DNA from: Limisphaerales bacterium
GTDB lineage: Bacteria; Verrucomicrobiota; Verrucomicrobiia; Limisphaerales; UBA1100
Assembly (NCBI GenBank): GCA_014382585.1
Contig: JACNJL010000044.1
Coordinates: forward strand, 1 to 64,000
Reading direction: 5' to 3'
Length of the DNA: 64,000 bases
In this document: in pieces, positions 40,353-45,295 of the stretch
Numbering within the stretch: the first letter of the stretch is position 1
Layout: each line of letters starts with the position of its first letter
The notes under the pieces: generated by a model
The model's input: only the letters and a program-made list of their open reading frames with translations
Databases searched by the model: none
What the model was told of the DNA's origin: nothing
Translations under genes and position numbers: made by a program

Positions 40353-40397
40353 CTGCGACCGGTTGACATTCCGATATCATTGCGTGACTTTATGATT

Positions 40398-41222
40398 ATG
40401 AAGTCCGCAATTTCCCTACTACTCTCACTTCTCTGCACTAGCTCGTTATTTGCCGAGCCGCCTAAGTTATTGCTCGCGAAGACTTGGGATGAATCGATCG
40501 ATCCGGCAGGCTGGTGGATCAGTGAAAAGTACGACGGAGTGCGGGGGTTTTGGGATGGCAAATCGCTTTGGACACGCGGCGGACACCCGATTGTTGCTCC
40601 GGATTATTTTCTGGCCGAACTCCCAACCGGGCTGGCGTTGGACGGGGAACTTTGGTTAGGGAGAAGACAGTTCGAGGAAACTTTGAGCACGGTTCGACGG
40701 CAGATTCCAGATGACCGGTGGCGCCGGATGCATTTCATGATTTTTGATGCGCCAAAAATCAAAGGAACGTTTGAACAGCGCACGGCATTCCTCAAAACGA
40801 AATTGCCCTCCTCATCGCGCCAGGTGCAGCTGGTGCCTCAGTGGCGCTGTCAGGGGAGAGCACACTTGATTGCAGAGCGGGACCGAATTGTGAAAGCCGG
40901 CGGCGAAGGATTGATGATTCGCGAGCCAGAATCGATCTACGAAGGCAAACGCTCGGGCACGTTGCTGAAGGTGAAGACGCACGAAGACGCCGAGGCGACG
41001 GTCATCGGCCACAAGCCGGGCAAGGGGAAATTCACCGGCATGCTCGGCTCGCTGCGCGTGCGTGCGAAGGATGGCCGGGAGTTTTCCATCGGCACCGGCT
41101 TCACCAATGCCCAGCGCAAAAACCCACCGCCCATCGGCGCGGTGGTGACGTACCGCTATCGCGGCCTCACGAAAAACGGACTGCCGCGGTTCCCGTCATT
41201 TTGGCGATTGCGGCCGAAATAG
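40398..41222 (+). CDS. Exported minimal ATP-dependent DNA ligase (LigE-like)
   Basis: A 274-residue protein with a signal peptide (MKSAISLLLSLLCTSSLFA). The ligase core begins at once with motif I EKYDGVRGFWDG (adenylated Lys44), then the motif III-like HFMIFDAP, motif IV GEGLMIR and motif V TLLKVKTHEDAEATVIG. A small OB domain ends RYRGLTKNGLPRFPSFWRL. Size and leader match the Lig E group, minimal ligases predicted to work in the periplasm, mostly known from proteobacteria. An ATG at 40392 is possible as start. A periplasmic ligase may repair nicks in DNA taken up or in extracellular DNA. It follows higBA by 45 bases. Confidence 0.9.
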   Translation: MKSAISLLLSLLCTSSLFAEPPKLLLAKTWDESIDPAGWWISEKYDGVRGFWDGKSLWTRGGHPIVAPDYFLAELPTGLALDGELWLGRRQFEETLSTVRRQIPDDRWRRMHFMIFDAPKIKGTFEQRTAFLKTKLPSSSRQVQLVPQWRCQGRAHLIAERDRIVKAGGEGLMIREPESIYEGKRSGTLLKVKTHEDAEATVIGHKPGKGKFTGMLGSLRVRAKDGREFSIGTGFTNAQRKNPPPIGAVVTYRYRGLTKNGLPRFPSFWRLRPK

Positions 41223-41271
41223 ATTCCCGCTTGCAATTGATCCGTGCAATCCATCCAATGCGGGCGCGTTC

Positions 41272-43878
41272 ATGGAAATGACCCGACAGCTCGCGGCCAT
41301 CGTGTTCACGGACATCGCCGGGTTCACGGCGTTGTCCTCGCGCGATGAGTCCGCCGCCTTCGCCGCGCTGGAGAAACAGCGCGCGCTGCTCAAGCCGCTC
41401 GTGGCCGAGTACGGCGGCGAATGGCTCAAGGAAATGGGCGACGGACTGCTGCTGAGTTTTCCCAGCTCGCTCAAGGCGGTGCATTGCGCGGTGGTCATTC
41501 AGCAAACGACTGCCGCGGAGGAACACCTCAACCTGCGCGTGGGCATTCATCAGGGCGACATCATCGCGAAGGATGGCGATGTGTTTGGCGACGGCGTAAA
41601 CATCGCCTCGCGCGTGGAACCGCATGCGCCCGTCGGCGGCGTGGCGATGACTCATCGCGTGCAGGAAGACATCGCCAGCCATCCGGACTTCACCACGGAG
41701 AGCATCGGCTTTCCCCCGCTCAAGGGTGTGGGCCAGCAAATGGAGCTGCACTGCGTGGTGAGTCATGGATTGCCGCGTCCCGAGAAAAAATGGAATGCCG
41801 CCGGCGCCGGTGAAACGCCCGATGAGATCGGCGGTTACAAACTCGTGCGCGCCATCGGCCGCGGTGCCTTCGGCGAAATCTGGCTTGCGCAAAGTGTCAC
41901 CGGCAAATTTTTCGCGCTCAAGATCGTGCGCCGCAGCAACTTCGACGACGACGGCCCGTACCAGCGGGAGTTTCACGGCATCCAGCAATACGAAAACATT
42001 TCGCGCGGCCATCCCGGCTTGGTCGATCTGCTGCACGTGGGCGGCAGCGAAAAAGAGGGCTACTTTTATTATGTAATGGAGCTGGCCGACGACCAGACCG
42101 GACAGCCACTTTCCGACCCGGACACTTACGAGCCGCGCACGCTCCTCTCCGACCGTCGATTGCACACGCGGCTTTCCACCGACGACACCCTGCGCGTGGG
42201 CATCACCCTCGCCCGCGGGCTCGCACACCTGCACGGCTGCGGCTTTCTGCATCGCGACGTGAAACCCGCCAACGTCATTTACGTCAATGGCCAGGCCCGG
42301 CTGGCGGACATTGGCCTGCTCACCGCCATGGACAACGCCGCCACGCTCGTCGGCACCCCCGCCTACATGCCGCCCGAGGGCCCCGGCCGCGCCGAGGCGG
42401 ATATCTATTCATTGGGAATTGTTTTATATGAAATGGCCACCGCCCAGGAGCCCACTCAATTTCCCGCCTTCCCCGAGGTGTCTGCCGATTCCCCCAGCGC
42501 GGCGAAGTTTCACCAACTGCAGGCCACCATCCTCAAGGCTGCCGCGCAGCATCCGGACCATCGCTATGCCGAGGCCGGCCAACTGGCCACCGAGCTGGAG
42601 CAGATTTTGCAGGACACCCTCACCACCGAGCCGCAGTACCGCGTGCAAAAGGACAACCAGCAATGGGGGCCGTTCACCCAAGCCGAGCTGTCCAGCCACG
42701 TGGCCAGCGGCACCTTCACCGTCGACGACCTTTGCTGGACCGAGGCACACGGCGATTGGCAACCGGTGGGAACCGTGCTGGGCGTTGAACCGCAAGCCGC
42801 GCCGGTTGCCGCCAAAGAGACGAAAGCCGCGCCGGTGAAGTTGATCGCCGCGACGGGCATTGTGGTGGCGGTATTGGCATTGCTGGCGATTGTTTTCATG
42901 GGCGATGACGAGGCCCCACCGGATCCAGATGGACCCAATGGGCCGGGCGCACAATCGCCAACGCAAGACTGGGGCGAGGTATATTCGGGAGAGGCGCACG
43001 AGGGGATGATTCGGGCAGTGGCATTTGACCCGAATGACTCCACCATCCTCGCCACCATTTCGGATGTGGACGGTGATCCGCCGAAAGTTTGGAGCTACAC
43101 TTCCGGCAAACTGCTCGCCACGCTTTCCGGCCACACTCATGAGGTGATGTGCCTGGCATTTCATCCGGCCAATCCCTGGCTCGCCAGTGGCAGCGGGGAT
43201 GACAAGGTGTTGATTCACGAGCTGTCCGGCGGAAAGCGGTTGCACGAGCTGGCGCACGAACCGGTGGATGGGCGCGACGGCAGCGTGGCCTGCGTCGCTT
43301 GGAGCGCGCGCGGTGACCGGCTCGTGACGGGGCTGAAGGATCACACGCTGCACCTTTGGAATCCGGAAAACGGATCGCACTTGGCGCAGCTGGGCGAGCA
43401 CCCGATCGAAGTCAACGCCGTCGCCTTCAGTCCGGTGGACAACAAGACCGGAGCCTCGATATGTGAAGCGGGAGAAATCAAGACGTGGAACAACAACGAA
43501 GGCCAAGCCAAACATTTGGCCACGCACCGCGACGGCGGGGCGGACATCGCGTTCAGTTCGGATGGGAGCATCCTGGCCACAGCCGGCAATAACGGCAACG
43601 TGATCCTGTGGTCCGCGCACGACGGCGAAACTCTCGCCACCCTCGAGGGCCATGAGGAGGGCGTCATGTGCGTGGCGTTTCATCCCAACGGCAAATGGCT
43701 GGCGAGTGGAAGCGATGACGACACGGTGATCCTTTGGGATCTGGCGTCCTGCCAAGTTTTCAAAAAGCTACAAACCACCGAGGACGTCAACGCACTCGCC
43801 TTTTCCGCGGACGGTTCGCGACTGGCCGCCGGCAGCGCGGATGGCACGGTGAAAGTGTGGGCGATTCCGACAAGGTAA
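41272..43878 (+). CDS. Adenylate cyclase - Ser/Thr kinase - GYF_2 - TM - WD40 signalling protein
   Basis: An 868-residue multidomain protein. (1) Class III cyclase, about 5-165: metal aspartates D14 (FTDIAGFTA) and D57 (EMGDGLL), adenine-selecting K53 and D107, transition-state N110 and R114 (VNIASR), so it should make cAMP. (2) Ser/Thr kinase, about 187-455: glycine loop IGRGAFGEIW, K217, HRDVKPAN (327-334), DIG in place of DFG (346-348), and PPE near 369. (3) GYF_2 (DUF4339), about 460-510: WGPFTQAEL and DLCWTEAHGDWQPV. (4) One transmembrane helix about 524-546. (5) WD40 propeller about 570-868. All catalytic residues look intact. The topology suggests a cytoplasmic enzyme half and a periplasmic propeller sensor. 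Confidence 0.93.
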   Translation: MEMTRQLAAIVFTDIAGFTALSSRDESAAFAALEKQRALLKPLVAEYGGEWLKEMGDGLLLSFPSSLKAVHCAVVIQQTTAAEEHLNLRVGIHQGDIIAKDGDVFGDGVNIASRVEPHAPVGGVAMTHRVQEDIASHPDFTTESIGFPPLKGVGQQMELHCVVSHGLPRPEKKWNAAGAGETPDEIGGYKLVRAIGRGAFGEIWLAQSVTGKFFALKIVRRSNFDDDGPYQREFHGIQQYENISRGHPGLVDLLHVGGSEKEGYFYYVMELADDQTGQPLSDPDTYEPRTLLSDRRLHTRLSTDDTLRVGITLARGLAHLHGCGFLHRDVKPANVIYVNGQARLADIGLLTAMDNAATLVGTPAYMPPEGPGRAEADIYSLGIVLYEMATAQEPTQFPAFPEVSADSPSAAKFHQLQATILKAAAQHPDHRYAEAGQLATELEQILQDTLTTEPQYRVQKDNQQWGPFTQAELSSHVASGTFTVDDLCWTEAHGDWQPVGTVLGVEPQAAPVAAKETKAAPVKLIAATGIVVAVLALLAIVFMGDDEAPPDPDGPNGPGAQSPTQDWGEVYSGEAHEGMIRAVAFDPNDSTILATISDVDGDPPKVWSYTSGKLLATLSGHTHEVMCLAFHPANPWLASGSGDDKVLIHELSGGKRLHELAHEPVDGRDGSVACVAWSARGDRLVTGLKDHTLHLWNPENGSHLAQLGEHPIEVNAVAFSPVDNKTGASICEAGEIKTWNNNEGQAKHLATHRDGGADIAFSSDGSILATAGNNGNVILWSAHDGETLATLEGHEEGVMCVAFHPNGKWLASGSDDDTVILWDLASCQVFKKLQTTEDVNALAFSADGSRLAAGSADGTVKVWAIPTR

Positions 43879-43978
43879 TCGCAACCCGCGCTGGCGTTTT
43901 CATCCAGTCACGCGTAGCCTCGAGTTATGAAATCCCAAGCACCCATCACCAAACCACATTGATGGAGATTTGAGTTGT

Positions 43979-44003
43979 TTGGGTTTTGGGCATTGGGCAT
44001 TCC
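43979..44003. repeat. Degenerate copy of the 57809-57833 intergenic repeat
   Basis: This 25-base G/T-rich stretch matches 57809-57833 at 21 of 25 positions and, like it, lies in a gap between genes. It is short and low in complexity, so the relation is tentative. Confidence 0.3.
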
Positions 44004-44062
44004 CACTCACCCCCTCACTTCAGTCTCGCGTATTCCTCCCCACTGTGCTTTACTTTCCGGCT

Positions 44063-45295
44063 ATGGAGGGTTTTGGTTCCCAGTTTCCGCCGCCACCGGT
44101 GCGCCCGTGGTGGCATCATTTGGCGTGGGCTTTGCCGTTAATGGCAATCACCGGGGGGCTCGGCTGGTGGCAGGGTGGCAAGCGTCAACAAGTCGCCGCG
44201 CCCATCGAACGCCCGCACGCGGTAAAGCCAGTGGAGAAAAAACCCGCGCCAAGCGTGACGGTGACCAATCGGCCCGCACCTGGGATCGGCGAGCGCGTGC
44301 CGGTGCGTCCGGAGACGAATCAATGGATTTCCCAACGCGGCGTGCGGGTGTACACCAACGCCACCGATGCCGCCCGCATCGGACTCACCCGCATCGGCGA
44401 AGAACTCCCATCCCTACCTGCAAACTTCACCCCGCGCCCAGTGACAGCTGGGAGTGATTTAGAGATTCAAGTTGCCTTGGATCGGCGCGGTTTTTCGCCC
44501 GGCTCAATCGATGGAATGAGCGGCCCACAAACGGTATCGGCCATCGCAGCCTTTCAGCAGCAGCAACGGCTGCCCATCAGCGGCCGACTCGATACCGCCA
44601 CACGCCGCTCACTCACCCTGCGCGCGCCGGTGTTTGCGCAGTACAGCGTTTCCACCAATGACCTGGCGCGGCCGCAGCCACTGGGAAAAACTTGGGCCGC
44701 CAAATCGCGCCAAGCCATTTTGGATTACGAAAGCGTGTTGGAATTAGTTGCCGAAAAACATCATTGCTCGCCGCGTTTTTTGCAGAAAATAAACCCGCTC
44801 GTGCATTGGCCCAGCGTGCGCGCGGGCACTGCCGTGAAGGTGCCCAACACCGCCGGCCCCGGCACGATGGCCGGCGTGGGCGCGCTGATTCACATTCAGT
44901 TGCGCGCGAAAACACTGCGCGTGTACGACAGCAGCACCAATCTTGTGGCTCAATTCCCCTGCTCCATCGCCACGCGCGTGGAGAATCAACCCGTTGGTCG
45001 ACTGGCCATCACCGCCGTGGCGCATCCGGCCAATTACACATTTAACCCCACGCGCTTTCCCAACACCCCCGAAGCGCTTGCGGGCAGCGGGTCGCTCAGT
45101 ATTCCGCCCGGCCCGAACAATCCCATTGGCACCGCGTGGTTCAGCCTCAGCCAACCTGGTTACGGCATCCACGGCTCGCCCGACCCGGAAAAAATCGGCC
45201 GCACGACTTCACTCGGCTGCTTCCGGTTGGCCAATTGGAACGCGGAACGGTTATTGAAATTGGTGAATGTGGGGACGAGTGTTTTGGTGGAGTGA
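44063..45295 (+). CDS. L,D-transpeptidase (YkuD) with peptidoglycan-binding domain
   Basis: A 410-residue protein. An uncleaved-looking membrane anchor lies at about 17-32 (HHLAWALPLMAITGGLGW), then a proline-rich linker and a PG_binding_1 domain at about 130-185 (LEIQVALDRRGFSPGSIDGMSGPQT). The YkuD catalytic domain covers about 275-410. Its active site is complete: HGSPDPEKIG and SLGCFRLAN with Cys386, the S-x-G-C-x-R motif. It should form 3-3 crosslinks in peptidoglycan or attach proteins to it from the periplasmic side. The ATG at 44063 is chosen because the earlier one at 43970 would translate a repeat-like intergenic stretch. A TACTTT -10-like box lies 6 bases before it. Confidence 0.9.
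   Translation: MEGFGSQFPPPPVRPWWHHLAWALPLMAITGGLGWWQGGKRQQVAAPIERPHAVKPVEKKPAPSVTVTNRPAPGIGERVPVRPETNQWISQRGVRVYTNATDAARIGLTRIGEELPSLPANFTPRPVTAGSDLEIQVALDRRGFSPGSIDGMSGPQTVSAIAAFQQQQRLPISGRLDTATRRSLTLRAPVFAQYSVSTNDLARPQPLGKTWAAKSRQAILDYESVLELVAEKHHCSPRFLQKINPLVHWPSVRAGTAVKVPNTAGPGTMAGVGALIHIQLRAKTLRVYDSSTNLVAQFPCSIATRVENQPVGRLAITAVAHPANYTFNPTRFPNTPEALAGSGSLSIPPGPNNPIGTAWFSLSQPGYGIHGSPDPEKIGRTTSLGCFRLANWNAERLLKLVNVGTSVLVE

Follow-up and report, generated by a model that had tools for sequence, protein, structure and literature searches.

What kind of signalling protein places a nucleotide cyclase, a protein kinase, a GYF_2 domain and a WD40 propeller in one chain, and would both enzymes answer to the propeller? 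This question is raised by a single gene in the window, by which we mean the whole stretch of 64,000 nucleotides analysed here. The reading frame is open from ATG to stop at 41272..43878 of the forward strand, its product has 868 residues, and its host is an uncultured Verrucomicrobia bacterium. An earlier note on this DNA had proposed the order cyclase, kinase, GYF_2, membrane helix and WD40 within one chain, and this order was confirmed by Pfam matches, hydropathy and an AlphaFold2 model. The features and neighbouring genes, all on the forward strand, are as follows.

41272..43878, +, whole gene: class III cyclase, Hanks-type kinase, GYF_2, transmembrane helix, WD40 (868 aa; Pfam and AlphaFold2 model)
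41272..41766, +, class III adenylate cyclase domain (aa 1-165; Guanylate_cyc, 6.8e-15)
41827..42648, +, Hanks-type Ser/Thr kinase domain (aa 186-459; Pkinase, 4e-31)
42307..42315, +, DIG motif (aa 346-348), the normal form for the kinase subfamily (87/106 related kinases)
42643..42777, +, GYF_2 adaptor domain (aa 458-502; 2.4e-12)
42841..42897, +, single predicted transmembrane helix (about aa 524-542; hydropathy)
42970..43875, +, seven-bladed WD40 propeller, predicted extracytoplasmic (aa 567-868; WD40 1.4e-51, 28 strands)
40380..41222, +, upstream neighbour, ATP-dependent DNA ligase-like gene (DNA_ligase_OB_2, 3.4e-32)
43970..45295, +, downstream neighbour, peptidoglycan-binding L,D-transpeptidase (PG_binding_1 and YkuD)

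Catalytic residues of the cyclase and kinase domains

The cyclase domain was matched by Guanylate_cyc (PF00211) at residues 8-160 with an E-value of 6.8e-15 and 55.6 bits against a cut-off of 21.9. When it was aligned with 34 related cyclase domains, all six catalytic residues were found, namely D14 and D57 for metal binding, K53 and D103 for adenine specificity, and N110 and R114 for the transition state. The Lys/Asp pair at the specificity positions is the pattern of ATP-using cyclases, and the product would be cAMP. The nearest solved sequence is 3mr7 (E 1.5e-23), and by alignment the active-site motifs of the class III cyclases 3mr7 and mycobacterial LipJ (1ybt) are the same as those of the window cyclase, although these solved chains, unlike the window protein, are without kinase, GYF_2 domain or propeller.

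The kinase domain (Pkinase, PF00069; residues 189-459; E 4e-31; 108.8 bits against a cut-off of 31.7) retains GxGxFG at 196-201, K217, E233, HRDVKPAN at 327-334 (HRDxKxxN), DIG at 346-348 and PPE at 367-369, and is closest, among solved structures, to PknA, StkP and PknB. Judged by sequence, both sets of catalytic residues appear complete, as the earlier note had claimed, with six of six in the cyclase and Lys, Glu, HRD, Asn and DxG all present in the kinase. That note had also read DIG instead of DFG and had suggested a special meaning for it. While the reading was correct, the meaning did not hold up: among 106 related kinases this motif is DIG in 87, DVG in 7, DLG in 4 and DFG in only 1, and DIG as a special tuning device was rejected on this ground. 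Considering that the 106 kinases were gathered by similarity to the window kinase, the count describes the subfamily and not bacterial kinases at large. The replaced Phe of DFG is usual and not strictly required in Hanks-type kinases, and on sequence grounds DIG is a trait of the subfamily that does not exclude the domain from the Hanks-type Ser/Thr kinases. The kinase is followed by the GYF_2 domain at residues 458-502, which scored 46.9 bits against a Pfam cut-off of 25.8 (E 2.4e-12).

Membrane topology and the propeller

The hydrophobic segment at residues 524-542 has a mean Kyte-Doolittle value of 2.96, compared with a maximum of 2.76 over 1000 shuffled versions of the sequence and 1.56 for the next segment. 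Three Lys or Arg residues lie in the 30 residues before it, and the 30 residues after it hold no Lys or Arg and seven acidic residues. The AlphaFold2 model, which was built from 40 sequences, has a mean pLDDT of 88.4. The WD40 repeats make up the C-terminal third (Pfam E 1.4e-51), and this part of the model has 28 strands, which fits seven four-stranded blades closed by strand 569-574. The linker at 511-564 was modelled with low confidence, and helix 530-542 lies inside this stretch. Among solved structures, the fold of the propeller is matched best by 5yzv, a Thermomonospora WD40 domain that we take to be the one of PkwA, with a TM-score of 0.94 on the target and 36% identity.

Since both enzymes need ATP, they should be cytoplasmic, and with one helix the propeller would then lie beyond the cytoplasm. 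The earlier note had placed the propeller outside on sequence alone; the single helix and the positive-inside pattern of its flanks agree with this placement, as does the prediction for Planctomycetota kinase-WD40 proteins, in which the kinase is predicted to be cytoplasmic and the WD40 part mostly periplasmic, mostly with one membrane helix (PMC11032199). The propeller holds five cysteines, which is not typical of oxidising compartments and counts against a receptor.

WD40 propellers are known above all as platforms for interactions, and the GYF_2 domain is likely a docking module. Both points would suit a propeller that is a protein-binding scaffold and not a sensor, where partners are gathered at the membrane and signalling is constitutive or controlled by expression. 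This explanation seems quite improbable to us, as the helix separates the propeller from both enzymes, an arrangement that suits an outside cue better than cytoplasmic scaffolding.

Comparison with known systems

Both PkwA of Thermomonospora curvata and the Planctomycetota kinase-WD40 receptors (PMC11032199) combine a Hanks-type kinase with a C-terminal WD40 propeller, as does the window protein, in which the PkwA-like order of kinase, membrane helix and C-terminal propeller was found. In contrast with the window protein, they are without an N-terminal cyclase, and the word cyclase is absent from the planctomycetal survey (PMC11032199). The TOMM system kinase/cyclase fusion (TIGR03903) unites, by its family name, a cyclase with a Hanks-type kinase in a single chain, but the kinase is N-terminal in its 1267-position model, whereas the cyclase comes first in the window protein. 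Membership in that family was rejected by order and by score, with 42.6 bits against a cut-off of 705.75 and only the kinase aligned. Animal receptor guanylate cyclases consist of an extracellular receptor domain, one helix, and cytoplasmic kinase-like and cyclase domains. Compared with the window protein, their order is reversed, their kinase-like domain is dead and their receptor domain is unrelated, and the likeness is an analogy only.

We give a probability of about 0.5 to the reading that the window protein is a single-pass receptor-type signalling protein, made of recombined local modules and related to the PkwA-type kinase-WD40 receptors.

Distribution of the architecture

The full architecture was found in two of 320 genomes of the order, the window's genome and G004 of the same genus. 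The ortholog in G004, a genome that matches the record JAAZZB010000012.1 of a Verrucomicrobiia MAG, is 68% identical to the window protein over residues 1-867. Two further cyclase-kinase chains of 585-586 aa were present among the 320 genomes, in G004 and G010. When 387 genomes across the phylum were searched with the cyclase-kinase part at E 1e-80, there was no match besides the window's own, and neither this sample nor the search of the order, with its two full-length proteins, showed a wide family with the same architecture. A cyclase-kinase-WD40 protein was not found described in the open-licence literature. The combination had been called unusual in the earlier note, which proposed a search for the same domain order, and its restriction to two genomes of one genus bears this out. 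None of the parts is new, and chains that pair a kinase with WD40 or with a cyclase are known already; within the range of the searches, the four-part combination is new and its distribution very narrow.

Kinase-WD40 proteins without a cyclase are common in the order. This speaks for a protein that is in essence a PkwA-like kinase-WD40 receptor, with the kinase as its sole output and the cyclase as a dimerising or dispensable add-on, and the G004 ortholog points the same way, with an intact kinase and the change D57E in the cyclase metal site. However, the cyclase of the window protein is under constraint and lacks none of its catalytic residues, and intact sites are also found in related cyclases of several architectures. 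We consider a kinase-only output unlikely.

Relatives and origin of the fusion

In the cyclase tree, the four cyclase-kinase proteins form one clade with a support of 99/97, which is adjoined with weak support by a cyclase-TM-WD40 protein of G009. In a kinase tree, a single clade for the kinase domains of the cyclase-kinase proteins was not rejected (p-AU 0.53). The cyclase-kinase-FHA proteins of the same family (L016:2721-4478 and L018:4676-6430; 586 and 585 aa) share with the window protein the order of cyclase then kinase and the cyclase clade. They differ in that an FHA domain stands at the C-terminus, where the window protein has GYF_2, the helix and WD40, and in that their kinases are degenerate: HRDIRPAS with DVS, and HRDIRPSS with GVS, are found in place of HRDxKxxN and DxG. 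Their cyclases keep all six catalytic residues.

Given that these nearest relatives keep the cyclase and have lost the kinase motifs, and that the fusions share one cyclase clade with a single kinase clade not rejected, the cyclase could be the sole output, and the kinase might mainly regulate it in cis by phosphorylation or conformation, by analogy with the kinase-homology domain of the receptor guanylate cyclases. Against this stand the intact kinases of the window protein and its ortholog, which are the best conserved part between the two (85% identity, dN/dS 0.12), and the observation that in the ortholog the change lies in the cyclase. A cyclase-only output therefore appears rather unlikely.

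Under the preferred reading of a receptor made of recombined modules, further proteins illustrate how the parts are combined. The G009 protein (L019:6529-8283, G009:C75) has cyclase, helix and WD40 and no kinase, from which it follows that a cyclase can join a propeller across a helix by itself. On the same contig, a cyclase-TM-TPR-like paralog lies about 2.4 kb from this gene on the same strand. The window's own genome (G000) encodes a GYF_2-kinase-WD40 protein of 1222 aa (L163:99-3764, G000:C14), which has many more WD40 repeats and no cyclase. In what seems the likeliest history, cyclase and kinase were fused once, and the C-terminal part was exchanged later. In the receptor reading, which as a whole has about an even chance, the window protein would have arisen when a cyclase from a lineage-specific clade was joined to a kinase-WD40 receptor like those often met in the order.

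The window's genome has 19 kinase matches, 31 GYF_2 matches and three cNMP-binding domains, and the three cNMP-binding proteins could read cAMP. Among the possible readers is the protein at L165:1340-2908 (G000:C46), which has a mechanosensitive-channel domain and a C-terminal cNMP-binding domain. Elsewhere in the order, 8-10 cyclase paralogs each were seen among the matches listed for two genomes, G106, on several contigs, and G157, mostly in one cluster on C23 (G157:C23:910-20286).

The G004 ortholog, selection and the variable slot

To describe selection on each domain, dN/dS was determined between the window gene and its sole ortholog, a pairwise comparison with dS near or above 1, so that the values (cyclase 0.11, kinase 0.12, GYF_2 0.57, propeller 0.24) are rough. 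Cyclase, kinase and propeller are all constrained by these values, and purifying selection has acted on both enzymes. In the G004 ortholog an in-frame TAA interrupts blade 5, after which the frame continues with recognisable homology and a dN/dS of 0.31; the TAA is either recent or a sequence error of the metagenome assembly. The ortholog's branch in the cyclase tree is 0.26, about eight times longer than that of the window protein (0.032). Because the sole ortholog has D57E, a long cyclase branch and the in-frame TAA, the complete form is attested once.

The G004 locus is flanked as in the window: a ligase-like gene lies upstream of the ortholog, and genes for an L,D-transpeptidase and a transporter lie downstream. 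That the combination stems from a frameshift or from a fusion made in assembly was rejected, as in G004 the domains are joined in the same order at this locus, between conserved neighbours. The L,D-transpeptidases of G004, G005 and G002 are 92, 92 and 86% identical to that of the window, and the ligase-like upstream gene is conserved in G004 and G005. In G005 and G002, also members of the genus, another gene is found in the slot next to the L,D-transpeptidase.

Window, 41222-43970: variable slot with the cyclase-kinase-WD40 gene, as in two genomes
L161:3812-5236 and L162:3509-4966: variable slot with a beta-helix/pectate-lyase-like gene, in two other genomes

As the content of the slot, which is bounded by the ligase-like and L,D-transpeptidase genes, differs within the genus, the cyclase-kinase-WD40 gene is accessory. 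Its patchy presence in a variable slot, together with the stop codon, D57E and the faster cyclase evolution in the sole ortholog, could be taken to mean a recently assembled accessory gene with little present function that is decaying. Yet dN/dS is well under 1 in all domains, even after the ortholog's stop, the window copy is intact, and that stop may be a sequence error. Decay is, in our view, hardly credible.

Proposed mechanism

In the receptor model, the cyclase, kinase and GYF_2 domains would be cytoplasmic, and the rigid seven-bladed propeller would lie beyond the membrane. When a ligand or protein partner binds the propeller, chains would be drawn together or change their orientation. 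Active sites of class III cyclases are built between two chains, and dimerisation with trans-phosphorylation is a common route of activation of Hanks kinases. Two cyclase domains could then form the class III dimer site and produce cAMP, and two kinase domains could phosphorylate each other and further targets, while GYF_2 would dock proline-rich partners. For enzymes of these two kinds, pairing of propellers driven by a ligand or partner is the simplest switch for both, and we infer activation of this dimer-driven type.

More tentative is the stricter claim that an extracytoplasmic WD40 propeller drives two outputs, cAMP and Ser/Thr phosphorylation, from one single-pass chain, in which the kinase might also gate the cyclase in cis. 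The relatives weaken such a two-output rule, since each of the two catalytic domains can decay: the FHA forms have a degenerate kinase, and G004 has an altered cyclase metal site. We regard the stricter claim as possible but doubtful.

A cyclase inside FtsK

A related observation concerns a different protein of the same family. The gene at G000:C62:3487-6621 (L020; 1045 aa) encodes FtsK_4TM, a cyclase, and FtsK alpha, motor and gamma in one chain. Of 20 genomes of the family, 19 have cyclase matches of this FtsK type, and in the 320 genomes of the order no above-limit cyclase match lay in a frame of FtsK size outside the family. When the domains were aligned, every one had all six catalytic residues, and the insert sits between the membrane part and the motor.

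FtsK-cyclase loci: L020:3487-6621, L024, L025, L030, L166-L170, L181, L184, L185, L188, L189

In each of these 19 genomes FtsK_gamma was matched exactly once, usually within the reading frame of the cyclase. It lies on a different contig from the cyclase in G010, G014 and G016, probably owing to contig breaks. The cyclase-bearing FtsK is the family's only FtsK. Directly downstream in G000:C62, at L020:6633-7505, is a gene for a cNMP-binding protein with a weak GYF_2 match, and a cNMP-binding protein is the next gene in nine of the nine genomes whose flank was read. This arrangement suggests that cAMP is made at the divisome translocase and read by the neighbour, in a possible local circuit. 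The open-licence literature yielded no description of an FtsK-cyclase fusion.

Implications

If both catalytic domains of the window protein are active and answer the propeller, the protein would combine two different kinds of output in a single bacterial receptor chain. If so, it would offer a natural model for studying how phosphorylation and cAMP signalling influence each other, for which the relatives with a decayed kinase or a decayed cyclase are matched comparisons. The cyclase inside FtsK may matter more than the cyclase-kinase-WD40 protein. Taken as a whole, a single cyclase clade has been put to use in at least five protein contexts within this small family of bacteria.
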